From contig CALXOD010000026.1 of the NCBI GenBank assembly GCA_944389925.1, positions 1 to 62,938 of the forward strand: a DNA stretch of 62,938 bases. Reading direction: 5' to 3'. The notes below the pieces were generated by a model. That model saw only the letters and a list, made by a program, of their open reading frames with translations. It had not been told where the DNA came from and did no database searches. Shown piece after piece: positions 9,637 to 61,877 of the stretch. The first letter of the stretch is position 1. The number at the start of each line of letters is the position of its first letter. Source of the DNA: an uncultured Victivallaceae bacterium (GTDB lineage: Bacteria > Verrucomicrobiota > Lentisphaeria > Victivallales > Victivallaceae). The position numbers and the translations under genes are program-made.

Positions 9637-11350
9637 GTTCAGAAGTCTCCTGGTTGGGCTCAGCTGGACTTTCCGGTGAAAGGGGGGCTGCGGAAACGGA
9701 GGCTGCCGCGTTTTCCGCCGGAGCGGTTTTGACCGGCAGCAGCCGCAAAATATCAAAGTAGGTAACATAGAGCATCAGAAGGACCAGCAGGCCGATGAAG
9801 AGTGCTGACAGAGCCTTGATTACCACTGTCGGCAGCGGTCTGCGGCAGATCAGCTCGATGACGGCAAAAGCGATGTGTCCGCCGTCCAGCACCGGCAGCG
9901 GCAACAGATTGAAGATTGCCAGTGCGAAGGAGATCATCACCACAAAATAAATGCCGGTAACCAGTGAAACATCTTTGACCGAACTGTAAAGAATTGTTCC
10001 CATACCAAGCGGTCCGGACATGTGACGAGGTTTGAGCGTGCTGGTTTCCTCGGTGAGTCCCAGCGCGTTTGCACCATTAACCAGCATTCCCCGCAGGGAT
10101 TTGTAACTGTTGATCAGGATGTTTTCAAACTGTTCGAAGGGAGTCGGATGGCTGAGCAGCATCAGTTCGACGCCGATGGTTCTGGGAACGATCTTCTCCG
10201 GCGCGATGGTCAGATCATGCTGTTGATCGCCCCGTTGCACTGTGAAGGTCATCGGTTTGGTGCCGTTCTGCCGGACGGCCTGAATCACCTGGGAGAAGTT
10301 GACCACCGGTTCACCGTTGACAGCGAGGATCAGGTCGCCGGGGGCGAGGTCGGTACCGACGGCGGGGGAATAGGGAAGAATTTCCAGCACAGTCGGTTTC
10401 TGATCGGATGCCTGAAAGCTCACACCGATGCGGTAGGTGATAAATTCCGGGGGGAGATCAGGAACCGGTTCCGCCTGAATCGGAATATCCAGTTTCTTGC
10501 CGTGCCGGTCGATTTGCAGATGCAGCGTCCGGTCACCCGCATTATTCAGCGTCATCTGAAATTCCAGGAAGGACGAGATGGGATTGCCGTCGATCGAATA
10601 CAGGATGTCGCCTTTACGGATTCCTGCCCGTTCCGCGATGGAACCGGGCAGCGGACGCAGTTCGATCGGCGTCAGCACGGTGAAAAAAGGATAGCCGATT
10701 TTTTCCTTGGCCAGTCGTCCGGGGGCGTTCGGGTTGTCGATGGGGGTGTAGGTGATCGGGATGATTTTGCCATTTCGCTCGACATCGAGTGTAATGTCTC
10801 CGACACTGAACATGATCTGTTCGACGAATTTGAGCCAGGTGCAGTGAAATTTTTCCCCGTTAAGCCGCACGATACGGTCGCCGGGGCGCAGCCCGGCGCG
10901 ATATTCCGGACTGTCTTCCGCTACCTTGGTGACCTCCATGACGCTCATTTTCGGAGATTCCTGAGGCAGACCCGCGATCCACACCACGCAGCCGAGCAGC
11001 AGTCCGAAAATCACATTGAACAGCGGTCCGGCGACGGCAGTGATGATTCGATCCAGCGGCTTCGCCCGCTGCAGCTCGGTGCCGTCAGCACTTTTAGGAA
11101 TTTCATCGGTGGCATCCACCTGAGGCAGTTCGACGTAGCCGCCGAGGGGAATGCAGCCGATCCGGTATTCAACTCCGTTGATTTTTTTTGCCCATACTTT
11201 ACGGAAGCCGATGGAGAAGGCGTCGATGTGCAGTTTTCTCCAGCGGGCCGCCAGAAAATGGCCGAGCTCGTGCGAAAAAATACACAAGCCAATAAAGAAT
11301 ACGACGAAAAACAGTGCCCCGATGGATTCGAGAATATTCAAAATATGCAT
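9611..11350 (-). CDS. rseP: RseP-family site-2 intramembrane zinc metalloprotease
   Basis: 579 residues. The zinc-binding HELGH is at residues 27-31 in the first transmembrane helix, and the third ligand region VLDGGHIAF is near the C-terminal membrane helices. Two PDZ-like regions lie between them (about 120-215 and 220-310). The family cleaves membrane-bound anti-sigma factors or signal peptides. It is longer than E. coli RseP (450 residues), partly because of a Pro/Ala/Ser-rich C-terminal tail of about 60 residues after the last helix. It sits between dxr (23 bp gap) and ispG (overlap), a widespread arrangement. Confidence 0.93.
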   Translation of the reverse strand: MHILNILESIGALFFVVFFIGLCIFSHELGHFLAARWRKLHIDAFSIGFRKVWAKKINGVEYRIGCIPLGGYVELPQVDATDEIPKSADGTELQRAKPLDRIITAVAGPLFNVIFGLLLGCVVWIAGLPQESPKMSVMEVTKVAEDSPEYRAGLRPGDRIVRLNGEKFHCTWLKFVEQIMFSVGDITLDVERNGKIIPITYTPIDNPNAPGRLAKEKIGYPFFTVLTPIELRPLPGSIAERAGIRKGDILYSIDGNPISSFLEFQMTLNNAGDRTLHLQIDRHGKKLDIPIQAEPVPDLPPEFITYRIGVSFQASDQKPTVLEILPYSPAVGTDLAPGDLILAVNGEPVVNFSQVIQAVRQNGTKPMTFTVQRGDQQHDLTIAPEKIVPRTIGVELMLLSHPTPFEQFENILINSYKSLRGMLVNGANALGLTEETSTLKPRHMSGPLGMGTILYSSVKDVSLVTGIYFVVMISFALAIFNLLPLPVLDGGHIAFAVIELICRRPLPTVVIKALSALFIGLLVLLMLYVTYFDILRLLPVKTAPAENAAASVSAAPLSPESPAEPNQETSEHADKTPHP

Positions 11351-49650: not shown

Positions 49651-50790
49651 GTGAATAGTAAAGAAGATAAGCGAACTCATGTTCTAATTTCTCTCTGTGG
49701 TATGTCGCCTGCTGTGATTACGGAAACTGTTTTTGCTCTGACCGAGTCTGGAGATCCACCTGAACAGGTGATTGTCATTACTACCAGCGCCGGAGCAGTT
49801 GGCCTTCGTGAAAAACTTTGGAATTCCGGAGTATGGACCACACTGATGAGGCGATTGCCATATAAGATCGATTTTTCTTTGAATCAGAAACATTTGCGCT
49901 TACTGCCAGATGGTGATCGTGACGCTGCGGATGTGGTTCATTCTCCGACAGTGGAGAATGCTGCTTCTTTCATTCTGGATGTATTACGGCAATATACTGA
50001 AAATCCCGATACCCGGATTACCTTTTCAATCGCCGGAGGGCGCAAAACCATGAGCGCACTCGGCGCATTGTGTATGAGCTTGCTCGGACGGCATGATGAT
50101 CGACTCTGCCATATTCTGGTGAATCCGCCATTTGACGACCCGATGCTGAATCCCGTATTTTACTTTCCCCAGCCTGGACGGATTCACACAGACCGCAATG
50201 GGAATGTGTATGATTCCGGAACCGCCGAGCTGACGCTGTCGGATCTCCCGTTCGTGCAGTGCAGATATTTGTTGGCCAACGAGCTGGGGCGACTTCCTGG
50301 TGACTATGTACGGATGGTTGAGTTGGCGAACCGCACGGTGACGCGGCTGAAACCTTCGGAAAAACTCGAACTGGTGCCAGCACAGTTGACCGTCCGGATT
50401 GGGAATGGGGCTTTTCGACTTCAATTCCGGCAATTTCTGCTCTATTGGATGCTGGCCGAACGGCGCAGCAGGGGGCTGGATCATTTGTATCACCGCAAAG
50501 ACCTCTATGAGGAATTCGTGGGGTTTGTCGAACACGTGCAGAAAAAAGTGCCGCAACGCTACTGGTATTCCTGCTCCGCTCTGCAGGAGAATGATAAAAT
50601 CCGGGAGGATACTTTAAACAAAAGAGTATCCGACCTTGCCGCTGTGCTGAAGAAACGAAATGTGCCGGAATCTTTTCTGCCGACGCGGGGAAGAGGGATT
50701 TACGGTCTCGGGCTGGAGCCGGGACAAATCCACATCCGGACATCCGGCGGAAGTCCGGAAAGTGGTTCTGCCGATCGGACCGAATTATAA
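49651..50790 (+). CDS. CARF-domain CRISPR protein (NE0113-like) with winged-helix-like C-terminus
   Basis: 379 residues starting with GTG, supported by a GGAGG six bases upstream. The N-terminal half has the layout of the NE0113/Csm6-type CARF family: ISLCGMSPAVITETVFAL at 13-30 and SIAGGRKTMSALGAL at 126-140, the latter typical of cyclic-oligoadenylate pockets. The C-terminal part (about 300-365, NKRVSDLAAVLKK then TRGRGIYGL) looks like an OmpR-type winged helix. I see no HEPN RxxxxH motif. It could therefore be a ring nuclease, a cOA-responsive transcription factor, or both. It is 70 bp before cmr2 and probably in the operon. Confidence 0.7.
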   Translation: MNSKEDKRTHVLISLCGMSPAVITETVFALTESGDPPEQVIVITTSAGAVGLREKLWNSGVWTTLMRRLPYKIDFSLNQKHLRLLPDGDRDAADVVHSPTVENAASFILDVLRQYTENPDTRITFSIAGGRKTMSALGALCMSLLGRHDDRLCHILVNPPFDDPMLNPVFYFPQPGRIHTDRNGNVYDSGTAELTLSDLPFVQCRYLLANELGRLPGDYVRMVELANRTVTRLKPSEKLELVPAQLTVRIGNGAFRLQFRQFLLYWMLAERRSRGLDHLYHRKDLYEEFVGFVEHVQKKVPQRYWYSCSALQENDKIREDTLNKRVSDLAAVLKKRNVPESFLPTRGRGIYGLGLEPGQIHIRTSGGSPESGSADRTEL

Positions 50791-50860
50791 TAATTGATGA
50801 AGTCAAAAAAGTGAATCATTTCGTTTTCATCAGCTTTTGCTAAATCAACAGGGAGGAAAG

Positions 50861-53434
50861 ATGGACAAACGGGAAGAACAATTCAAACGGATGGTTCTGG
50901 CGTATCTGCACGATCCGCCGCATAAGGTACTGGACCTGCTCAGGCATGAGGAGTTTGCGGCGGCCTTTATCCGGACCGTATGGGTGGATTGTCCGACGGG
51001 CAGCGAGGATCTGCGGTATGAGCGGTTGGCGGAAGACGGCGATCCTTATTTCTGGGAAAACACGCCGGATCACGCCGCCGCGGCGGCGGACCGGGTGATT
51101 TTCCCGAACCACTCGGCCGGAGCGGGCGGTTGTTTTTCTGATCGGAACAGCCACCGGGGAACGATCAAGCATCCGCTTGGGGCGGGAGAACGGCAGATCG
51201 TCTGTCCGGTTACCGCGGCAAAGGCGGAGGAGCAGTTGCAGGACAGCTTCGGGGGGATCAAGGCGGAGTCGTGGCGGGAATTCTTCTTTCTGCTCTGGCG
51301 GCGCTGGCGGGAGGCGAGTGCGGCGATCAATCCGGCGCTGGCGGCGTTGCCTGCAGATTCCAGAATTCCCGATCATACGATATGGCTGCATGCGGATTTG
51401 ACCGCGGCGTTCGAAGCGTGCAGAACCGGTGGCGGTTCCCGGCTTGAACCGGCGTTTCTGCTGTTTCAGCTCGGACCGGTCCAGGAATGGATTGCGGCAG
51501 CGCGTTCCACGCGGGATTTGTGGAGCGGCTCGTATCTGATTTCGTGGTTGACGGGGCAGGCGATCAAAGCGGTGACCGACGAGATCGGGCCGTCGGCGGT
51601 GATCTTTCCCGCATTACGCGGACTCGGAATTTTTGACGCGGTCAACCGGGAATTTTTCGAGCACGTTTTCTACCAGGGAAAAGACGGTCAGAGCGACTCC
51701 CTGTGGCAGCGGCTGTACGGAACATCCCGGGAAACGGAGAATGCAGACAGTGCGTTGTTTCATCCGACCATTCCGAATCGTTTTCTGGCGCTCGTTCCCG
51801 CCTCGCGGGCGGCGGAACTGGCAGGCCGGGCGGAACAGGCGGTACGAGACGAGTTGAAAAAAATCAGCGACCACTGTTTTAAGGAGCTGAAGAAGCTGGC
51901 ACAACGGGATATCTCCTCCTGGCGGCCGCGTTGGGAGAAACAGGTGGAACTCATGCCGCAGATCACCTGGCAGACGCTTCCTTTTCATACGGATCTAGAT
52001 CAGGCGCTTGCCGTGTTGGAGAAGATAGATCCCGCGCAGGCGGAACGGATGCGGCAGGTCCGGCGCCTGGCGGAAGAACTTATTCCGGAAAAACAGCGCG
52101 ACGGCCGTTACTATCGCAGGTGCGAGCGTTGCGGAGAACACCCGGACCGCTGCTCCCATGCGGAGAAGAGATGGAGCCTCAATCGACCGGAATTGGCCTG
52201 GGGGGCGAATTTTGCGGAAGTGAGCCTGCGCCTGGCGGCCCGCCGCAACACGCGCGACTTTGCCGCGTTCGTTACCGATGACCATCAGGAAGGCGTTCCG
52301 AAGGATATGCTGACCGGTAAAGAAGAGGCGGTCGGAGACGAGGCGTTTTGGAAAAATCCCCCCGGGATTTTCAAGGACAATGAGGGACCGTATGGTGCCA
52401 TGAACATCATCAAGCGCCTCTGGTGTGCCCCTGACTGCGGTTATCTGGTTCGGGCGCTGAATTTTCCTCCCCAACGGGTTAATGCGTTTCTGCGTTTTGA
52501 ATCGACACCGGAACTGGCGGGGAAGCGCGGCTATTTCGCGATTCTCGCACTGGACGGCGACGAGATGGGCAAATGGATCAGCGGAGAGAAGACGCCGGGG
52601 TTTCTGGAACAGCTCCGGGAAAATACGCGGGTGTATTTTGAGCGGCTCGGCGTAACGCCGGATTATCGGCGTCAGGTGACGCCTGGCTACCATCTGCAAT
52701 TCAGTGAAGCTCTGGCAAATTTTGCTTCAAAATTTGCGGGACGGATCGTCGAAGAGCACGGCGGCTGTCTGATCTATGCGGGCGGCGATGATGTACTGGC
52801 GGCGCTGCCCGCAGAGAAGGCGCTGGATTGTGCCGAGGCGCTGCGGAAAGCTTTTCACGGAGACGGCGGCTGGCAGGACGGAATTCTGGTACCGGGTGGC
52901 CGGGCCGAGGTTTCCTGCGGGATTGCCATTGCCCATGCGCATCATCCATTGCAACAGGTTGTAGCAGAAGCACGCCGGGCAGAACACCGGGCGAAGCACG
53001 ATTACGGACGGAGTGCCTTTGCCGTGTCGTTGCTCAAACGCGGCGGAGAGATCATCCATTGGGGCGCGAACTGGCAGGATGGGGCATTGCCACTTTTCCG
53101 GAAGTTTCTGGAGATGACGTTGCAGGAAAAAGTTTCCAAGCGTTTCCCCTATGTACTCGCAGGACTGCTGGCGCCGTACCGGCTGCAGGACGGGGCGGAG
53201 AAGTTTGCTCCGGAATTTCATCCGCGCGAGGTAATTGCCGGTGAACTGGAGCAGGTGCTGGCCAGGCAGGTGGAGGATAAGGAGCAGAGACCATTGCTGC
53301 GGGAAATGAGCCTGGCTTATCTGGATGCTCTGGACAGGAAAAAGCGCTGGGGCGATTTTGAAAAACTGTTTTTGTCGGCGGCATTCATCGGGCGCGGTCA
53401 TTCCGATGATGGCAAGGAAGGGGGGCAGGCATGA
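50861..53434 (+). CDS. cmr2: Cmr2/Cas10, type III-B large subunit and cOA synthase
   Basis: 857 residues from the ATG at 50861 (GGGAGGAAAG site). It senses target RNA and makes cyclic oligoadenylate. An N-terminal HD motif is at 17-18 (YLHDPPHK), as in Cmr2. The palm domains have LDGDEMGKW (D565, D567) and an intact GGDD at 641-644 (YAGGDDVLAAL), so cOA synthesis is expected. A zinc knuckle is at C421, C424, C431 and H433. It overlaps cmr3 in ATGATGA. Confidence 0.93.
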   Translation: MDKREEQFKRMVLAYLHDPPHKVLDLLRHEEFAAAFIRTVWVDCPTGSEDLRYERLAEDGDPYFWENTPDHAAAAADRVIFPNHSAGAGGCFSDRNSHRGTIKHPLGAGERQIVCPVTAAKAEEQLQDSFGGIKAESWREFFFLLWRRWREASAAINPALAALPADSRIPDHTIWLHADLTAAFEACRTGGGSRLEPAFLLFQLGPVQEWIAAARSTRDLWSGSYLISWLTGQAIKAVTDEIGPSAVIFPALRGLGIFDAVNREFFEHVFYQGKDGQSDSLWQRLYGTSRETENADSALFHPTIPNRFLALVPASRAAELAGRAEQAVRDELKKISDHCFKELKKLAQRDISSWRPRWEKQVELMPQITWQTLPFHTDLDQALAVLEKIDPAQAERMRQVRRLAEELIPEKQRDGRYYRRCERCGEHPDRCSHAEKRWSLNRPELAWGANFAEVSLRLAARRNTRDFAAFVTDDHQEGVPKDMLTGKEEAVGDEAFWKNPPGIFKDNEGPYGAMNIIKRLWCAPDCGYLVRALNFPPQRVNAFLRFESTPELAGKRGYFAILALDGDEMGKWISGEKTPGFLEQLRENTRVYFERLGVTPDYRRQVTPGYHLQFSEALANFASKFAGRIVEEHGGCLIYAGGDDVLAALPAEKALDCAEALRKAFHGDGGWQDGILVPGGRAEVSCGIAIAHAHHPLQQVVAEARRAEHRAKHDYGRSAFAVSLLKRGGEIIHWGANWQDGALPLFRKFLEMTLQEKVSKRFPYVLAGLLAPYRLQDGAEKFAPEFHPREVIAGELEQVLARQVEDKEQRPLLREMSLAYLDALDRKKRWGDFEKLFLSAAFIGRGHSDDGKEGGQA

Positions 53435-54612
53435 TGAATTACGAACTTGAATTGCAGCCGCGAGACGTACTTTATTTTCGGGACGGGCGTCCGATTGGGG
53501 GAAGTGCCGAAGGAAGTGGGGCCGTGTGGCCGCATCCGGCATTGTTTCACTCGGCGTTGCTGGCGGCGCTGCAACGTCGATTTTCGGAGCGACTGGGAGA
53601 ATGGGAGAGTGAACATCACCGCCTGACAGATTCCGAAAAACGGAAACAGGAACGGGGCAAGGTCCGATTTCATCTGGGCGGTCTGAAGAGCTGGGGGCCG
53701 TTTCCGAAAACAGACGAGGGGATTCTGGTCGCGACTCCGGCCGACCTGTTGGCACAGGGGGGCGTTGCGGCACCGCTGCTGCTGCCGGAACGGGGAGGGG
53801 TATCGAATCTGCCGGAACCGCTGAAATATCCGGTCGGCAGTTTTGACGGGGCGACGAAAGAGAAACCCGGCGAGTGGCTGTTTCTCTCGGAGCTTTCGCG
53901 TTACCTGGCGGGAGAGACGGAAAAGTTGCGGACGGTCGCTTCCCGGGAGCTGTATCTTTCCGAAGCGCGTCCGGGGATCGGGATCGATGCCGAACGACGG
54001 GTGGTGGCGGAGAGCCGGTTTTACAGTGCGGAGTATCTGCGGTTGAGGCAGGGCGTTTCGATGGCGGCGTTTGCCTCCTGCACGGCGAAAAAATACAACG
54101 GCGCTGAAACCGACATGCTTGAAGAACTTTTCCGGGAAACGAACCGTTGTGATCTGATTTTCGGCGGGCAGCGCGGCACCGCCCGGTTGGAATGTTGTCG
54201 CCGCTTGACGGCACTGGTAGCGGCGCCACCGGATTCATTTCCGGAAAACCGGGTGAAATGGGTATTGCTTTCGCCGGCGTTTTTCTGCAACGGATGGATC
54301 CCGGGATGGCTGGATCGCCGGAGCGGCGCGGTGATGCTCCGGGAGAACAAGAGCGAAACGGTCGATGCCCGGCTGGTGGCGGCCTGTATTCCGAAACCGC
54401 AGGTGGTTTCCGGCTGGAATCTGGCGACGAATGTGCCGAAGGTGACTCGGCTGCTGGTGCCGGCGGGAGCGGTTTATTACTTCGAATGCAGGACGCAGGA
54501 GGATGCGCGGCGCCTCTGCCGGATCCTGCATGGTAGAACCAAGCCTGATGCGTTGGGTGAACAGGGGGTCGGGCTTGGAGTCTGCGGCCGATGGGATTTT
54601 ATGAAACTGTAA
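53431..54612 (+). CDS. cmr3: Cmr3, Cas5-like subunit
   Basis: 393 residues. The Cmr3 N-terminus LELQPRDVLYFRDGRPI and GSGAVWPHPALFHSALLAAL are characteristic, and a RAMP glycine-rich loop follows near the C-terminus (GEQGVGLGVCGRW). It caps the crRNA 5' handle in the complex and contacts Cmr2. Confidence 0.9.
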   Translation: MMNYELELQPRDVLYFRDGRPIGGSAEGSGAVWPHPALFHSALLAALQRRFSERLGEWESEHHRLTDSEKRKQERGKVRFHLGGLKSWGPFPKTDEGILVATPADLLAQGGVAAPLLLPERGGVSNLPEPLKYPVGSFDGATKEKPGEWLFLSELSRYLAGETEKLRTVASRELYLSEARPGIGIDAERRVVAESRFYSAEYLRLRQGVSMAAFASCTAKKYNGAETDMLEELFRETNRCDLIFGGQRGTARLECCRRLTALVAAPPDSFPENRVKWVLLSPAFFCNGWIPGWLDRRSGAVMLRENKSETVDARLVAACIPKPQVVSGWNLATNVPKVTRLLVPAGAVYYFECRTQEDARRLCRILHGRTKPDALGEQGVGLGVCGRWDFMKL

Positions 54613-54652: not shown

Positions 54653-55504
54653 ATGATGGAAAAACAGATTATTTCGATTTTCACGCGTACGCCTCTGCAT
54701 GTGGGAGCGGGTAATTCCGTGGGCGCGGTTGATTCCCCGGTCATGCGCGAACGGCATACCCGGATTCCGATCATTCCCGGCAGCAGCCTGAAGGGGGTAC
54801 TGGCCGATCTCTGGAATGATGAGCAATTCAAGCGGACCGAAGAGGGGAAAAAACTGTTCGGTGAGGATGCACAGAATTCGGCTGGAGCGAAAGCCGGACA
54901 ACTGCTGGTCGGAGAGGCACGGGTGCTGGCGTTCCCGGTACGCTCCGCGAAGGGGTCGTTTGCCTGGATCAGCTGTCCGCTGGCGTTGCGGCGTCTGGAG
55001 CGGGATGCCGAACTGATGCTGAATGTGGCGCAGTTCGACGATTTGACGGAGGACCGGTGTGCCGCGGTTTCCGACGCTGTGACGCTCAGCGGCGGCAGAG
55101 TGGTACTTGAGGAATATCAGTTCTCCTGTCAGCAGAAGGATCTTGGTGTGATTGCGGAAAATCTGGCGGCGCTCAGCGCGGATCCGGTCTGGAAGGAGAT
55201 TGGGAAACGGCTGGTAGTGGTGAACGACGAGATGTTCAGTTATTTCGTTGAACAGGCCTGCGAGGTGGTGTCGCGGATCCGGGTGAACGACGCAACCGGC
55301 ACGGTCGATGCTGGGGGATTGTTCAATCAGGAACAGGTGCCGTCGGAGACGATGTTCTACGCGGTGCTGGGGGCGGAGACGAAGAGGGCGGCTTCTGAGG
55401 TTCTGGACCAGGTACGGAAGAAACTGGCATCGGTCGGGAATGTGCTGCAGATCGGCGGCGACGAGACGATCGGTCTCGGGTATTGTACGGTAACGCTCAA
55501 CTGA
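54653..55504 (+). CDS. cmr4: Cmr4, Cas7-like backbone subunit and RNA nuclease
   Basis: 283 residues. The catalytic aspartate is in GAVDSPVMRERHT, position 27 by the first ATG and 26 by the second, the same place as the known RNA-cleaving residue of Cmr4. GSSLKGVLADLW and GLGYCTV complete the RAMP fold. Several copies form the backbone and cut target RNA at 6-nt steps. It follows cmr3 by 40 bp. Confidence 0.93.
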   Translation: MMEKQIISIFTRTPLHVGAGNSVGAVDSPVMRERHTRIPIIPGSSLKGVLADLWNDEQFKRTEEGKKLFGEDAQNSAGAKAGQLLVGEARVLAFPVRSAKGSFAWISCPLALRRLERDAELMLNVAQFDDLTEDRCAAVSDAVTLSGGRVVLEEYQFSCQQKDLGVIAENLAALSADPVWKEIGKRLVVVNDEMFSYFVEQACEVVSRIRVNDATGTVDAGGLFNQEQVPSETMFYAVLGAETKRAASEVLDQVRKKLASVGNVLQIGGDETIGLGYCTVTLN

Positions 55505-55520: not shown

Positions 55521-55916
55521 ATGAAAAATCTCGATCAGATCCGCGCCGCGAACGCGATCCGTTTTCAGAATACTGTCTTTCCCGGAGCAGAAGGCGGTGA
55601 AGTGGTAAAAAAAGTGCCGACGATGATTCGAGACAATGGAATGCTTGCGGCTGCCGCCTTTGCCGCTGAGCCCAAGGGAACTGGAAACTATAAGAATCCC
55701 GGTCACAAGAAAGTATTTGACTGCATCATCGAGCACCTTGCTTCCAATGGTGTAAAATTGCTGAGCAAAACCATGTCTCTTGAGGAGTTTATTCAATATC
55801 TGGCGGGCGGGGATTCCGCTATATTGCGGCATGTGACGGCAGAAAGTATGGAGTATTTGAACTATCTGCGTCGTTTTGCCCGCAAAAAGGAGGGAGAAAA
55901 CCATGGCAGGGAATAG
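55521..55916 (+). CDS. cmr5: Cmr5, small subunit (Cas11)
   Basis: 131 residues, mostly helical, with the Cmr5 pattern RAANAIRF near the start and VPTMIRDNGMLAAAAF (the family IlqnGLaqalaF-type motif). It stacks along the inner face of the complex. It lies 16 bp after cmr4 and overlaps cmr6 by 14 bp. Confidence 0.88.
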   Translation: MKNLDQIRAANAIRFQNTVFPGAEGGEVVKKVPTMIRDNGMLAAAAFAAEPKGTGNYKNPGHKKVFDCIIEHLASNGVKLLSKTMSLEEFIQYLAGGDSAILRHVTAESMEYLNYLRRFARKKEGENHGRE

Positions 55917-57042
55917 TGCGATTCTTTCGGTTCAGCGTGGTGTGGTCGATGTTCTCGGAGGAACAGATCTGCCGAAACTGGAATCCATTTCGCTGCGTTT
56001 GCGGAAAATGGTGCTCGTGGGGCAGCGGGTTTCCGATAAAGAGTTGAAAAAGGTCTGCTCCGTAGCGGAGAGAAACAAACAGTGTTTGAAAAGCATACCG
56101 ATATCAACGTGTACAATTCCCGGGATGGTGACGTTTATGTTGCAACTCGGGGGACGAATGATGGTGGATCAGGCGGGGGGAGTGCTGGAGAACGCCAATC
56201 TCTGTCTGCACCGGAATCTGGGATTTCCGATGATTCCCGGTTCGGCGTTGAAAGGGATTGCCCGCCATGCCGCCTGGTGCCAATGGGTGGAAAGGTTGGA
56301 GGCGGGGAAAACGGCGGAGGCGAAACACATTGCCGGATTGCTGGCCGCAACTTTCGGCTACCCTACCGGAGACTCGCTCCCTGCAAATGACGCGATCCGG
56401 ACTCGCGAACCGGGACGTTATCTGGATGCGTATCTCGCCCGTGAATTTCCGGATGATTACGGGAAGGACGGCCGTAAAACCACATGGGCGGGGGCGGTTT
56501 CGTTTCTGCCGGCAACGCCGGCCGACGGGAAATGGAAGCTGGTGGTGGATGTGTTGAATTTCCATCAGAATAGCGATTGCAGGAATCCGGTTCCGGTTTT
56601 TTTCCCAGCGGTGGAGCGAGGGACGAAGTTTCGATTTGTCGTCGCTCCTATAGCCGGAAGGTGTACCCCAGAGATACTAAATTTCGCGGTGGAAATGCTG
56701 AAAATGGGGCTGAGCACCGGAGGTGTCGGCGCCAAGACCGCCGCGGGATACGGCTGGTTCGATCCTGCTTCAGAGGAGAAGGTGGTTGACCATTCCACCT
56801 GTTCCCGGGAGGAACTCGAGGCGATTTCCCAGCAAGAGGTGAATCAGCTTTCATTCATGGGCTTGGAGGACACGGTGGATTCGCTGGCATCCCGAGATGA
56901 GTTGTTTCAGCGGCTTTATCTCATCCGTCTGACGAAAGAAAAAGCAAAAGTCATGCGCCGATGGGAGAAGAAGGGCGATTCCCGTCTGCAACAGGTGCTG
57001 GAGATTGCCGGAAAACTCAATATGGAGCTTACGTACAAATGA
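55903..57042 (+). CDS. cmr6: Cmr6, Cas7-like cap subunit
   Basis: 379 residues from the ATG at 55903, which has an AGGAGGGAG site. RAMP features are GFPMIPGSALKGIARHAAW, WAGAVSFLPA and LSTGGVGAKTAAGYGWF (glycine-rich loop). It is longer than archaeal Cmr6, with an N-terminal helical addition of about 70 residues. The stop overlaps the cmr1 start in ATGA. Confidence 0.88.
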   Translation: MAGNSAILSVQRGVVDVLGGTDLPKLESISLRLRKMVLVGQRVSDKELKKVCSVAERNKQCLKSIPISTCTIPGMVTFMLQLGGRMMVDQAGGVLENANLCLHRNLGFPMIPGSALKGIARHAAWCQWVERLEAGKTAEAKHIAGLLAATFGYPTGDSLPANDAIRTREPGRYLDAYLAREFPDDYGKDGRKTTWAGAVSFLPATPADGKWKLVVDVLNFHQNSDCRNPVPVFFPAVERGTKFRFVVAPIAGRCTPEILNFAVEMLKMGLSTGGVGAKTAAGYGWFDPASEEKVVDHSTCSREELEAISQQEVNQLSFMGLEDTVDSLASRDELFQRLYLIRLTKEKAKVMRRWEKKGDSRLQQVLEIAGKLNMELTYK

Positions 57043-57869
57043 AAGACCAGTATGAGTTCGAGTTGTTGACGCCGTGTTTCTGCCATGGTGCATTTCCGGA
57101 GGAGGTGGCGGAAATGCGCGTTCCATCGATTCGCGGTCATCTTCGGCGCTGGCATCGGTTCCTCTATGGAGAAGAGGATATGAAGCAGACCTGGGGAACC
57201 GCGGGCAGGGAAGTGGTCAGCAGCCGGGTAATCCTGCGTCTTATGACCAGTGACGGGAAGGCCGAGGAGTGGGAACCGCAGCAGGTCCTCCCGCATGCGA
57301 AACGCGAACTGTATGGGAAACGCGAACCGCATGCGAAACGCGAACAGAAGACTTTTTCTCGTAGTGCATTGAAAAGCGGAATGAGTTACCGTTTGCTGGT
57401 TTCTTTTCGTCCGCTGACTTCGGAGCAGGTGCGGGAGCGGGTGGATCAGGTTATCACGAGCTGGCTTTATCTGGGATGTGTCGGGATGAGGAACACCCGG
57501 GCGTTTGGTTCGGTCTGGCCGAAGGACAAGTCCCCAGATTTGATTGAATTCTCCCGAACGGTGAAAACAGCGGCGGAAAAACTGGCGATAAAGGTTTCCG
57601 TAAAAACGTTGTCGAGCCCCAATCTGGCCATCTGCTCGGATACATTGAGCGGGGCGGAAAATGAACAGTATTTCGGTTATGTCCATGGAAAAGAACGGTT
57701 GACATCTCCTCTGAAAATGAAGTACATTCGCCTTGCCGACGGTTTCCATCTGGTACTGTATGCGGAATGCGACGCAATCATTTCCGGGGCGCTGATGCAG
57801 TTGCGTGAACATAAAAAGCCTTTGGGGGGGATGGAGTTCAAATCCATTTCTGCGGAGGTTCGGCGGTGA
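57039..57869 (+). CDS. cmr1: Cmr1, RAMP subunit
   Basis: 276 residues from the ATG at 57039. The N-terminus FELLTPCFCHGA, then MRVPSIRGHLRRWHRFLYG, are Cmr1 motifs, followed by a later glycine-rich turn YLGCVGMRNTRAFGSVWP. It caps the crRNA 3' end. A run of three 18-bp units (57292-57345) gives HAKREL, YGKREP, HAKREQ in series, an insertion in the first domain. Confidence 0.88.
   Translation: MKDQYEFELLTPCFCHGAFPEEVAEMRVPSIRGHLRRWHRFLYGEEDMKQTWGTAGREVVSSRVILRLMTSDGKAEEWEPQQVLPHAKRELYGKREPHAKREQKTFSRSALKSGMSYRLLVSFRPLTSEQVRERVDQVITSWLYLGCVGMRNTRAFGSVWPKDKSPDLIEFSRTVKTAAEKLAIKVSVKTLSSPNLAICSDTLSGAENEQYFGYVHGKERLTSPLKMKYIRLADGFHLVLYAECDAIISGALMQLREHKKPLGGMEFKSISAEVRR
57292..57345 (+). repeat. 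Three tandem 18-bp units inside cmr1
   Basis: Units 1 and 3 are identical (CGCATGCGAAACGCGAAC) and unit 2 differs at three positions. The set keeps the frame and adds 18 residues. Confidence 0.95.
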
Positions 57870-58249
57870 TGGAGTCGATGCTGATCGGGAATACGTTTCC
57901 GCTGACCTTGATGCGGCGGCGCCTGACGGTGGACGTCGTGCCGCTGACGGAACTGCTGCGGGCGGTGAAGGGAAAACGGATCGCCTCTTTCTGGGGACAC
58001 GCCAATACGCTGCGCGCAGCTTCGGCGGCGGTGGGCGTGGATCTCACTCCGGCGACGGAACGGCCGGTGCTGACGCTTTCCCCGGAAGGATTGCCCATGC
58101 TGGACGGTGAGGTGTTCCGCGAGTGCTGGATTCTCTCGCCGGACTGCCGTCGGAATTTCCGCCCGTCCATCGGAGAGGAACTAAAACCCGAAGAAATCCG
58201 CGGCTGGCAATGTTTGCGGCTTATCTGGCAAATATCAGAATCAAAATAA
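57869..58249 (+). CDS. DUF1874/AcrIII-1-like protein, candidate ring nuclease
   Basis: 126 residues from the ATG at 57869, which overlaps the cmr1 stop (TGATG). By eye it follows the plan of DUF1874 proteins (viral AcrIII-1, Crn2, YddF). It has GNTFPLTL near the start (Asn-Thr/Ser site), ASFWGHANTL with the putative catalytic His44, GVDLTPATERP (cf. GVDVEMNRI in YddF), and GEELKPEEI (cf. GKILTIEEI, with the conserved Glu). AcrIII-1 cleaves cyclic tetra-adenylate. Placed between cmr1 and the cA4-type nuclease Card1, an off-switch role is likely (inference). Overall similarity is distant. Confidence 0.6.
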   Translation: MESMLIGNTFPLTLMRRRLTVDVVPLTELLRAVKGKRIASFWGHANTLRAASAAVGVDLTPATERPVLTLSPEGLPMLDGEVFRECWILSPDCRRNFRPSIGEELKPEEIRGWQCLRLIWQISESK

Positions 58250-58260
58250 AGGAAAGAAAT

Positions 58261-59388
58261 ATGTGCTCATTTACCACTCAGGTCGTCATCGTTTCTGCCC
58301 AGGCCACCCCCAACGTGCTCGCAGTGATGGACGAGTCCATCCGCCCGAAGGAAGTCATTCTCTGCGCCACGGATCAGATGCGCGGGAAGGCCGAGGTGCT
58401 GCAGGCCTATTTTAAACGAAACCAGATTGCAGCGTGGATATTTGACCTCGGGAATGCGTATGATTTCGCGCAGCTTCAGGATAAATTCCTGGAACTGGCT
58501 GTGAAACTGGCGAGCAGGAAGGCGGAGGTCGGAGTCAATCTGACCGGCGGGACCAAGCTCATGACCATGGCGGCGCAACGAGTTTTCTGGGATGATTTCT
58601 CCTGTTTCTACGTCAATCCGGAGCGGAATGCCATTCAGTATATTTCAGAGGAAGGCACCCCGGAACATCAGATGAAAGAACAGTTGAAAATCCGTGATTT
58701 TTTCGCGATCCACGGCTATGAGGTTACCCATTCTGAAAAGAAAAAGGTTTCTGACAAGACCAGAGCGCTCTGCCGGGAACTCCTGCGGAATCATCAGCAG
58801 TATGCATCGGCCCTGGGCACCCTCAACTATCTGGCTGGAGAAGCTGCCAAGGCGAAAGATCTGACTGTACATAACAACATTCCGGAAAAATCATGGAATC
58901 TGCTCAAACTCTTTCAGGATCACGGTTATATTTCCTATTATGATGATCGGAAAATCCAGTTTGCCGACGAGGAGAGCCGCCGTTTCTGCCAGGGGTTCTG
59001 GCTGGAGGACTGGGTGGCCTGCGCGCTGGAGGAGCTGAACCGACAGCTGGAGCTGCAGGACTACGCATCTTCCATCAGGATCAAGAGTCAAAACGATGCC
59101 GAAAACGAGATCGACGCGGCGTTTCTGTACCGGAACCGGCTGTACCTTGTCGAATGCAAAACCGCCGATTTGTCGGAGGATGTCAAAATCGCTCCGCCGC
59201 TCTATAAACTGGACAGCCTGCATCAGTTGCCGGGCTTTTTTACCCGGATGATTCTGGTGAGTTATCAGGCGCTGGATTCCCACGGTAAGCAGCGGGCCGA
59301 GGATTTGCGTGTGACGGTGGTGGAGCCGAAAAATCTGCTGGGATTAGCTACCGTTTTGAAGAAAATGCTGCAACCGGAGGCGCGTTGA
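58261..59388 (+). CDS. card1: Card1/Can2-type CARF nuclease (DUF1887)
   Basis: 375 residues from the ATG at 58261, the length of known Card1/Can2. The N-terminal CARF domain has the hallmark VNLTGGTKLM (92-101). A C-terminal PD-(D/E)XK nuclease has NEID (D285) and VECK (E298, K300). Family members are switched on by cyclic tetra-adenylate and then cut DNA and/or RNA. It has an AGGAAAG site 11 bp after the DUF1874-like gene and lies 4 bp before cas1. Confidence 0.88.
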   Translation: MCSFTTQVVIVSAQATPNVLAVMDESIRPKEVILCATDQMRGKAEVLQAYFKRNQIAAWIFDLGNAYDFAQLQDKFLELAVKLASRKAEVGVNLTGGTKLMTMAAQRVFWDDFSCFYVNPERNAIQYISEEGTPEHQMKEQLKIRDFFAIHGYEVTHSEKKKVSDKTRALCRELLRNHQQYASALGTLNYLAGEAAKAKDLTVHNNIPEKSWNLLKLFQDHGYISYYDDRKIQFADEESRRFCQGFWLEDWVACALEELNRQLELQDYASSIRIKSQNDAENEIDAAFLYRNRLYLVECKTADLSEDVKIAPPLYKLDSLHQLPGFFTRMILVSYQALDSHGKQRAEDLRVTVVEPKNLLGLATVLKKMLQPEAR

Positions 59389-59392
59389 CCTG

Positions 59393-60421
59393 ATGCCGTC
59401 GCTGGTGATCACCCGGGATACCATTTCAGTGCGGCTGCAGTCGGACCGACTGGAACTGATCCGACATGCGGAAACGGATACGGAGCGTCCGGTGCGGCTG
59501 GAGGTGCCGCTGCACGATCTGGAACGGGTGGTCATCTGCGGGCGGCCCATCGTCACTTTGCCGGTGCTTCACAAGCTGATGGACCGACATATACCGGTTA
59601 CATTTCTCAGTTCCCGGGGGCGATGGCTGGGAGCGATTGACTCCGGGAATCAAACCCATGCCGCGCGCCGTATCCGGCAGTACCGGCTCTTTGAGTCGGA
59701 ATCCGTTCGCAATGCGGCGGCTTCCCGCCTGATTTACGCGAAGATCCGCAATTCCCGGCGGGTGCTCCAGCGGTTGTCTGCTGCGCGTCATGAATCGGAT
59801 TCTCCGAAACAGCGGGAGGCAGCGGCGTTTCTGCGGCGTTCCTGTACGGAGGTGCGGCGGATCCGTCCTGCGGGGGATGTGCTCCGGGGGATGGAGGGGA
59901 TGGCGGCGGCTTGTTATTTCCGTCGTCTGGGAGATTTCTTTCCGCCGGAACTGCCTTTTGTGGAACGGTCCCGGCAGCCGCCGCTCAATGCGGCCAACGC
60001 CATTCTCTCCTGGAGTTACACCATTGTTCTAAGTGAGATCGAAACCTGTCTGCGGCTGCACGGATTGGAACCGGGGATCGGGTTTCTGCATACGGTGGCT
60101 TACAGCATGCCGTCATTGGCGCTGGATCTGCTGGAGCCGTTGCGGGCGCCGCTGTGCGACATGCTTTCGCTGCATTTACTGAATCATCGGATTCTGCGTG
60201 CGGAACACTTTCGATTTGATGCGGAAGATGGGGGCACCTACCTGACGGATGACGGAAAGAAGCTGTTTTTTACGGCATACGAGCAGACGATGGCGCGCAA
60301 ATTCTCGCTGAAATCCGGAGGGGAACACACGGATTTCCGGCAGGTGATCGAGCGTCAGGTGGGGGCGGTGATCCGGATTCTGGAGGGTGGGGAGGATGTC
60401 GAATTTTTCCACATGCCCTGA
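59393..60421 (+). CDS. cas1: Cas1 integrase
   Basis: 342 residues. It inserts new spacers with Cas2. The metal ligands are visible as E168 (RGMEGMAA), H233 (GFLHTV) and D245 (LALDLLEP). An N-terminal beta-domain covers the first 80 or so residues. No reverse transcriptase or Cas6 is fused to it. It overlaps the likely cas2 start. Confidence 0.95.
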   Translation: MPSLVITRDTISVRLQSDRLELIRHAETDTERPVRLEVPLHDLERVVICGRPIVTLPVLHKLMDRHIPVTFLSSRGRWLGAIDSGNQTHAARRIRQYRLFESESVRNAAASRLIYAKIRNSRRVLQRLSAARHESDSPKQREAAAFLRRSCTEVRRIRPAGDVLRGMEGMAAACYFRRLGDFFPPELPFVERSRQPPLNAANAILSWSYTIVLSEIETCLRLHGLEPGIGFLHTVAYSMPSLALDLLEPLRAPLCDMLSLHLLNHRILRAEHFRFDAEDGGTYLTDDGKKLFFTAYEQTMARKFSLKSGGEHTDFRQVIERQVGAVIRILEGGEDVEFFHMP

Positions 60422-60761
60422 GTTGGGGGAGTACGGGATCGGAGAGTCGGCCGGTTATGATCCGGCGAAGGAGGTTTTCCGCAATATGCTGCGTCTGGTG
60501 GCTTATGATGTGACGGATGCGCGTCGGCTGCGCAAGGTGGCGCAGGTCTGCAAAGATTATGGATTGCGGATCGAATACAGTGTATTTGAGTGTGATCTGG
60601 AGGAACGGGTTTTTCTGGAGTTCTGGAGGCGTCTGCTGATGTTGATTGATCCGGAAAAGGATCGTTTGATCTCCTACCGGATTTGTGCGGGATGTGTGGC
60701 GGAGATTCGCAGTGCGGGGGTGCTGGAGCATCCGAAGAAGGTTTTGTTGTATATTTTATAA
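60396..60761 (+). CDS. cas2: Cas2
   Basis: 121 residues from the ATG at 60396, or 91 from the ATG at 60486. The core MLRLVAYDVTDARRLRKVA is the Cas2 ferredoxin-fold start with the metal Asp, and SVFECDLEE is the second half. The 60396 start has a GGAGGG eight bases upstream and the extra region has high GC at third positions, so an N-terminal extension of 30 residues is plausible. The shorter form has the usual Cas2 length. Confidence 0.85.
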   Translation: MSNFSTCPELGEYGIGESAGYDPAKEVFRNMLRLVAYDVTDARRLRKVAQVCKDYGLRIEYSVFECDLEERVFLEFWRRLLMLIDPEKDRLISYRICAGCVAEIRSAGVLEHPKKVLLYIL

Positions 60762-60776: not shown

Positions 60777-60933
60777 TCGGCATGGGATCGGAAACATCCT
60801 CAAGAGGGGGTCTCATGCCGAAATGATGGAAGCCTTTGGGTGGCAATGGGAAAAGAAATAAAATTTCTGGTCTTGGGTACGGATGTAGTCATAAGCAAAG
60901 TTGGTGGAGAGGGGGGCCCATGCCGAAATGGGC
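60777..60933 (+). promoter_or_regulatory. CRISPR leader with repeated CATGCCGA motif
   Basis: Between cas2 and the array. CATGCCGA occurs inverted at 60777-60784 and direct at about 60814 and 60919. The two direct copies sit in 22-nt blocks (60804-60825, 60909-60930) matching at 19 of 22 positions. The second block is the arm and loop of a perfect 6-bp hairpin (GCCCAT/ATGGGC, 60916-60933) just before the -35 box. Confidence 0.6.
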
Positions 60934-60972: not shown

Positions 60973-61838
60973 ATCTAAAACCCCTCCAAAGCCGAAAGGC
61001 GTTTGAGACGAAAGGGCGACCAGTGATTTCTGTTGCAGGTACCGGGCATCTAAAACCCCTCCAAAGCCGAAAGGCGTTTGAGACGTTTTCTGTACCTGTT
61101 TTTGTTTACTTTTGTCCAACCACATCTAAAACCCCTCCAAAGCCGAAAGGCGTTTGAGACTTCTTTTTCGATCCGAACAACGTTTATTTTTACGTCAGTA
61201 TCTAAAACCCCTCCAAAGCCGAAAGGCGTTTGAGACCCAACGGATATTTTTCATTCCCCCACTGAATTATTCCATCTAAAACCCCTCCAAAGCCGAAAGG
61301 CGTTTGAGACATACGGCCATGCGGCCGTCTTTCAGCTTTACCACACGGATCTAAAACCCCTCCAAAGCCGAAAGGCGTTTGAGACCTTCCCCTTTCATTG
61401 TCTGAAAATTCCCCGGTCTATCAATATCTAAAACCCCTCCAAAGCCGAAAGGCGTTTGAGACTTGGTAGCGTCGAACGCTACCATGGCCGAACCGTCAGG
61501 CATCTAAAACCCCTCCAAAGCCGAAAGGCGTTTGAGACCTGGCGTGAAAATCGTGGCAGTCGGTTTCTTCCACGACGATCTAAAACCCCTCCAAAGCCGA
61601 AAGGCGTTTGAGACGACGTCCTTCCCCCAACGGATTTTTCCGGCCATGTCAATGATCTAAAACCCCTCCAAAGCCGAAAGGCGTTTGAGACGCAATCGGG
61701 AATATCTCCGGAAGATGCGACCTGCACTTCCGATCTAAAACCCCTCCAAAGCCGAAAGGCGTTTGAGACAACGGTTTATTGCGTTCCACCTTGTCCGCGA
61801 TTACATCATCCATCTAAAAGCCGAAAGTCGTTTGAGAC
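60973..61838 (+). CRISPR. CRISPR array, 12 repeats and 11 spacers
   Basis: The repeat is 37 nt, beginning ATCTAAAACCCCTCC and ending GGCGTTTGAGAC, with an internal GCC-GAAA-GGC hairpin (GNRA-type loop). Eleven copies are identical and start at 60973, 61048, 61124, 61200, 61274, 61349, 61426, 61502, 61578, 61655 and 61733. The twelfth (61812-61838) has lost 10 nt (CCCCTCCAAA) and has one G to T change, so the trailer end is on the right. Spacers are 38, 39, 39, 37, 38, 40, 39, 39, 40, 41 and 42 nt. The crRNA 5' handle would be TTTGAGAC. Adjacent to cas1-cas2 of a type III-B locus. Confidence 0.98.
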
Positions 61839-61877
61839 TTATGAGAGAGGTGCTTTAACCTGCTTAGCTAACGGCCT
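61839..61877 (-). other. tRNA-Met(CAT)-like 5' half abutting the last repeat
   Basis: On the minus strand, TAGCTAAGCAGGTTAAAGCA matches the D-arm of a typical tRNA-Met at about 17 of 20 positions, including the conserved A14, G18-G19 and A21. It is preceded by a 7-nt acceptor-like arm and followed by a 5-nt stem arm and the loop CTCATAA, with anticodon CAT, T33 and A37. It ends precisely where the CRISPR repeat begins; no 3' half follows. A 39-nt length is also that of a spacer. Confidence 0.6.

Follow-up and report, generated by a model that had tools for sequence, protein, structure and literature searches.

Which protein, if any, removes the signal of a type III-B CRISPR system whose own effector is not expected to do so, and can a small gene without annotation lying inside the operon be the one? 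We address this question for a locus of an uncultured Victivallaceae bacterium, carried on a single contig of 62,938 nucleotides (CALXOD010000026.1, hereafter the window) from a genome of 2.80 Mb that is 97% complete. A reading of this contig from its letters alone, to which we will refer as the sequence-only reading, had pointed to a small protein without standard annotation, which we call P0001, and had proposed that it has the DUF1874 fold and acts as a ring nuclease on cyclic oligoadenylate. It had placed the gene between cmr1 and card1 in a type III-B operon, and profile searches confirmed these neighbours. The III-B locus is complete and consists of an uninterrupted and co-directional set of genes, which runs from a CARF5 protein through cas10/cmr2, cmr3, cmr4, cmr5, cmr6, cmr1, P0001, card1, cas1 and cas2, followed by the array:

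49651..50790, + strand: CARF5, an NE0113/Csx14-type CARF protein of 379 aa, extended at its C-terminus (PF09623, TIGR02584, PDLC01904)
50858..53434, + strand: cas10/cmr2, cyclase motif GGDD (642) intact, N-terminal HD motif (18) (profile searches)
53431..54612, + strand: cmr3 (profile searches)
54653..55504, + strand: cmr4 (profile searches)
55521..55916, + strand: cmr5 (profile searches)
55906..57042, + strand: cmr6 (profile searches)
56961..57869, + strand: cmr1, its stop overlapping the P0001 start (profile searches: RAMP, Cmr1)
57869..58249, + strand: P0001, 126 aa, candidate ring nuclease from a divergent branch of DUF1874, with H44 as candidate catalytic residue and with invariant R65 and R98 (homologue alignment, fold, profile comparison)
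58261..59388, + strand: Card1/Can2-type effector, CARF and PD-(D/E)xK nuclease, EID (283-285) and ECK (298-300) (PF23400, PF09002; PADLOC CARF4--CARF_PDDEXK)
59393..60421, + strand: cas1 (profile searches)
60387..60761, + strand: open reading frame with cas2, start probably near 60474 (homologues adjoin cas1 in related loci)
60973..61840, no strand assigned: CRISPR array with 12 repeats of 37 nt (ATCTAAAACCCCTCCAAAGCCGAAAGGCGTTTGAGAC) at a spacing of 69-78 nt, the final one degenerate

The cyclic oligoadenylate signal presumably originates from Cas10/Cmr2. Two minor features of the locus can be mentioned here. The Cmr1 protein contains an imperfect short tandem repeat (around 57330-57400; HAKRELYGKREPHAKREQ), possibly a variable linker, and the gap between cas2 and the array (60803-60930) holds two 23-nt direct repeats, 91% identical to each other and unlike the CRISPR repeat, which are possibly part of the leader. 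A search of the window with Rfam returned no RNA family.

A gene without profile matches

P0001 is an open reading frame of 126 codons plus stop on the forward strand. Its ATG overlaps the stop codon of cmr1 (TGATG; cmr1 stop at 57867-57869), and card1 starts at 58261, 11 nt past the end of P0001 and after the sequence AAAGGAAAG. Compared with an orthologue of 83% identity, P0001 shows a dN of 0.10 and a dS of 0.81, and the differences fall on the first, second and third codon positions in the proportions 13/12/47, so that it can be considered a real gene under purifying selection.

The lack of a standard annotation was borne out, since searches of P0001 against the Pfam, NCBIfam and PADLOC profiles gave no match. 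In particular, it is not matched by the DUF1874 profile itself (PF08960, STIV_B116-like), which among 15 homologues gave a single match at an E value of 0.22. No CARF profile of the PADLOC search matched P0001, and the Csx16 profile (PF09652, Cas_VVA1548) matched neither P0001 nor any of 15 members of the family. With the single sequence as query, no convincing relative was found among viral contigs, phages or plasmids. A few candidates were set aside: phosphomannomutase, an unrelated weak match (E 0.58) and the sole phmmer result for the single sequence against the PDB; the PF16827 zinc finger, matched by 2 of the 15 homologues (best E 6e-4), with one conserved Cys only, P0001 itself unmatched and the fold contradicting it; and PHROG matches, which were weak and disregarded.

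Fold and remote homology

The AlphaFold2 model of P0001 (pLDDT 88.9, pTM 0.82) was compared with the PDB by Foldseek, and the first 15 ranks were all occupied by DUF1874 structures (6SCF, 2X4I, 2J85, 2J6B and 8Y7G/8Y7F). The best match was AcrIII-1 (6SCF; E 3.4e-6, TM 0.60/0.66), whereas the first match outside DUF1874 had an E value of 0.17 and a TM of 0.18; no CARF or Csx3 structure stood among the PDB matches listed. The model of the phage homologue described below (pLDDT 92) retrieved the same set of DUF1874 matches with weaker E values. Thus the structure search, which the sequence-only reading had suggested as a check and which we repeated with this phage homologue, agrees with the fold that had been guessed, as far as predicted models go: DUF1874, AcrIII-1 and Crn2 are what it returns.

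Profile comparison supports the relationship independently of structure. Searched against 177,635 PDB sequences, the profile of the P0001 family had only two matches, both weak, SIRV1 114 and STIV B116 (2X4I, 2J85; E 0.036 and 0.21). Aligned by hhalign with a set of 13 viral DUF1874 proteins, the family reached a probability of 91 (P 1.1e-6), the score being 43.7, while the highest among 200 column shuffles was 18.4 and the reversed profile scored 11.6. With a TM of about 0.6, about 15% identity and a longer hairpin, the relationship is a remote one; nevertheless, judging from these profiles and models, P0001 is almost certainly a homologue of DUF1874 and a distant cousin of AcrIII-1.

The sequence-only reading had also wondered about a new branch, and this idea held: PF08960 is blind to P0001 and matches nothing in the genomes sampled from the phylum, and the position of Glu88 is changed. 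Because neither the profile nor Glu88 is matched, we placed P0001 on a distant branch of the superfamily, outside Crn2 in the narrow sense. What is new here is a divergent branch within a known kind, the DUF1874 ring nucleases, and not the kind itself.

Conserved residues and the putative active site

The motifs that had been named in P0001 are all present, namely LIGN-TFP (N8, F10), G43-H44-A-N-T47, GVD...R65, GEELKPEEI (102-110) and GWQCLRLIW (112-120), and they go beyond chance, many of their positions being invariant in 32 homologues. The invariant residues are G7, F10, P11, S40, W42, G43, H44, T47, R65, P66, P76, R98, P99, G102, W113 and L116; N8, whose DUF1874 counterpart is also N8, is kept in 29 of the 32. 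The second half had been called divergent, which is true with respect to DUF1874 and does not hold within the family of P0001, where it is strongly conserved.

In the viral DUF1874 set, G46, H47, R66 and R85 are invariant, and N8, N65, E88 and G89 nearly so. G43-H44, invariant in 32/32, are aligned by hhalign to G46-H47 of AcrIII-1, and the profile alignment brings R65 at or beside R66. The joint MAFFT alignment with DUF1874 failed over the C-terminal half, so that R98 (with G102) is equated with R85 (with G89) from two features, its location following the penultimate strand and the R-x3-G spacing, not by superposition. Between R65 and R98, the hairpin exceeds that of AcrIII-1 by about 14 residues.

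The AcrIII-1 mutant H47A is inactive and still binds cA4 (PMC7213978), and the matching His of a Csx1-Crn2 fusion, H495, is essential to cA4 cleavage (PMC7293037), which makes His44 a strong catalytic candidate.

If R98 corresponds to R85, the Glu88 position (R+3, residue 101) is occupied by I, V, P or L in the 32 homologues, hence not by an acid, and catalysis may therefore be altered, in rate as well as in specificity. The viral DUF1874 protein SRV ORF148 is also devoid of this Glu. An acid is found at E104 in 27 of the 32 homologues.

Distribution and association with Cas10

The neighbourhood survey, another check suggested at the outset, was run on 388 genomes across Verrucomicrobiota, including Victivallaceae, so that the searches covered one phylum. 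The family is phylum-wide, being found in 27 of them, which belong to 19 genera, and in 10 of the 78 Victivallaceae genomes; the relatives come from Victivallis, Victivallaceae, Lentisphaerae, Kiritimatiellae and Verrucomicrobia MAGs. None of these 388 genomes gave a match to the canonical PF08960 profile. The Csx16 search gave none in the genomes of the phylum, and none in the control genomes either.

A Cas10 match is present in 25 of the 27 carriers against 37 of the 361 non-carriers (Fisher p 2.7e-20, a nominal value since the genomes are related). The carriers without one are G064 and G404, the latter 72% complete. At the level of the loci, 32 besides the window, Cas10 lies within the fetched stretch in 25, other cas genes in 3, whose contigs end nearby, while 3 members are solitary and 1 belongs to a phage. 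The survey thus shows the family to be a genetic partner of Cas10.

Its members usually sit inside a cmr or a III-D operon. Their place is not fixed: they follow cmr1, precede cas10, or adjoin card1, cas6 or CARF-RelE. As members occur in operons of both types, III-B and III-D, and at variable positions, a role as a Cmr subunit is unlikely and a shared role in signalling is likely. Two effectors recur beside them, CARF-PD-(D/E)xK (Card1/Can2-like) and CARF-RelE. In the window, the context proper to a ring nuclease is found, that is, a cyclase-competent Cas10 together with an effector, the GGDD and Card1 motifs being intact.

Proposed function

We consider it probable that P0001 is a host ring nuclease which removes cA4 to switch Card1 off. 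The Cas10 of the III-B system would sense foreign RNA and make a cyclic oligoadenylate, most likely cA4, which would activate the neighbouring nuclease Card1. By analogy with its relatives, P0001 would bind cA4 as a dimer, with the ring held in the interface, and would cut it in a metal-independent manner to A2>P, H44 serving as general acid and R65 and R98 binding the phosphate. With the loss of cA4, the alarm would decay and Card1 would be turned off. Effectors of the Can1/Can2 type have no ring nuclease activity of their own, and 66% of their loci include a known ring nuclease (PMC12409355). What we observe directly is the gene, its family, the homology of fold, the conserved residues and the association with Cas10, and we infer from these the dimer, the substrate, the chemistry and the role as off-switch. 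We counted against a ring nuclease the missing match to a curated profile, the change at Glu88, the remoteness of the similarity, the 2 carriers out of 27 without Cas10 and the 3 solitary members.

The same fold could also serve a ring nuclease that prefers another ring (cA3, cA5, cA6 or several of them) in a pocket remodelled by the invariant W42, the extended hairpin and the missing Glu88. The position following the invariant Arg is indeed remodelled, the R65-R98 hairpin is longer by the 14 or so residues mentioned above, and the small ring nuclease Crn4 has a broad specificity (PMC12830947). However, the recurrent effectors, CARF-PD-(D/E)xK and CARF-RelE, are of kinds with known cA4-activated members, and the DUF1874 enzymes described in the papers that we consulted act on cA4, so that we hold a non-cA4 preference to be improbable. 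We give slightly less credit still to a catalytically dead P0001 that would bind cyclic oligoadenylate without cutting it, as a sponge or buffer. The loss of the acid at the Glu88 position would fit such a protein, but SRV ORF148 lacks this Glu likewise, and His44, the equivalent of the essential H47 of AcrIII-1, is invariant in all 32 homologues, including the phage copy, although a pure binder would not need it. Finally, that the fold was kept for another CRISPR role unrelated to cyclic nucleotides, as a Cmr accessory subunit or a regulator, is very improbable, for if the gene is co-encoded with cmr1 and overlaps it, and if some DUF1874 relatives are tagged 'DNA binding protein' in phage records, the position nonetheless varies between loci, including III-D operons without a Cmr complex, a phage without any Cas10 has a member, and the putative catalytic residues are invariant.

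If P0001 is the ring nuclease that we favour, it may not be the sole off-switch, because the CARF5 protein that opens the III-B locus belongs to a family which NCBI names ring nuclease. A homologue of this protein is encoded directly upstream of the DUF1874-like gene in L015, L056, L058 and L064; in several relatives, therefore, two putative signal-handling proteins travel together.

Comparison with known ring nucleases

AcrIII-1 (SIRV1 gp29; 6SCF, 2X4I), the viral anti-CRISPR ring nuclease of DUF1874/PF08960, resembles P0001 in fold, order of motifs, GH motif, size and profile-level homology, and probably in the two Arg positions. P0001 differs from it by the roughly 15% identity, the unmatched PF08960, the lost Glu88 and the longer hairpin, and also by its conserved Trp-rich C-terminus and by being host-encoded in Cas10 operons. 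Moreover, the family has SFWGH where DUF1874 has S/N-x-I/V-GH. The title of the 6SCF entry concerns the degradation of cyclic oligoadenylate, and 8Y7G is a Csx1-Crn2 fusion with cA4. Crn2, including this fusion from Marinitoga, is like P0001 host-encoded, linked to type III systems and of the same fold; P0001, in contrast to the fusion, stands alone.

Csx16, which acts on cA4, is small, stand-alone and of type III as P0001 is, yet its profile matches none of the 15 members of the family; a weak structural similarity of Csx16 to 2J6B, and a DALI Z of 4.8 to a Crn2 homologue, have been reported (PMC12409355). Crn4 is small and type III-associated too, and has one His and one Arg as key residues (PMC12830947), but its fold is unique, with no significant DALI match, and its T13/H15 lie near the N-terminus, whereas the invariant His of P0001 is residue 44 in a DUF1874 fold. 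Crn1/CARF and Crn3, with their CARF/Rossmann and Csx3 folds, are unlike P0001, for which no such structure stood among the PDB matches listed and no CARF profile matched.

A cellular branch and its phage copy

In a published survey, Crn2 was counted at only 7 loci of prokaryotes and in 36 phages, and a viral origin was argued for (PMC12409355), whereas the P0001 branch occurs in 27 of the 388 genomes sampled from a single phylum. This branch adds a sizeable cellular population, one that published Crn2 profiles may not see. As it is present in 25 of the 62 genomes with a Cas10 match, it probably closes much of the 'no known ring nuclease' gap in the phylum. The literature that we searched, which left aside most subscription journals and supplements, yielded no paper on it. 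The family alignment provides a better search profile, and the family itself is a natural active-site variant, without Glu88, for dissecting the mechanism.

The phage member is found at 10001-10354 of a 69-kb IMG/VR contig (L072, IMGVR_UViG_3300005613_000049), a tailed-phage contig with terminase, portal and tail genes on which no Cas10 was found. It is 46% identical to P0001 and keeps the His and both Arg; Cys86 and the terminal Trp are changed. By analogy with AcrIII-1, we regard it as a candidate anti-CRISPR for these hosts, for which, to our knowledge, none is known. More speculatively, one could picture a separate and mainly cellular DUF1874 lineage as a common type III ring nuclease across the phylum. 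Its active site would be rearranged (Glu88 missing, an invariant Trp ahead of GH), its substrates would possibly differ, and phages would have taken it as an anti-CRISPR; the traffic between hosts and viruses would then have gone both ways, and not only from virus to cell. We put this broader picture forward tentatively, as a possibility that we would not bet on.

Unusual members of the family

The solitary copies are chromosomal and away from cas genes (L044 2127-2492, L051 9848-10225, L059 3212-3574), and two of these genomes are without Cas10. Their neighbours are housekeeping genes: a non-ribosomal peptide synthetase, NADH-dehydrogenase-like/radical SAM and ZIP transporter genes. The member of L061 (77-2470) has cas1, cas2 and a reverse transcriptase/PrimPol-like adaptation protein in its vicinity. 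Finally, a subgroup (L065 9874-10263, L067 895-1275, L068 9854-10282) carries a short insertion near G56 (e.g. GLPAGALEPR), has E for N46 and no E104, and is always located directly upstream of a short Cas10.
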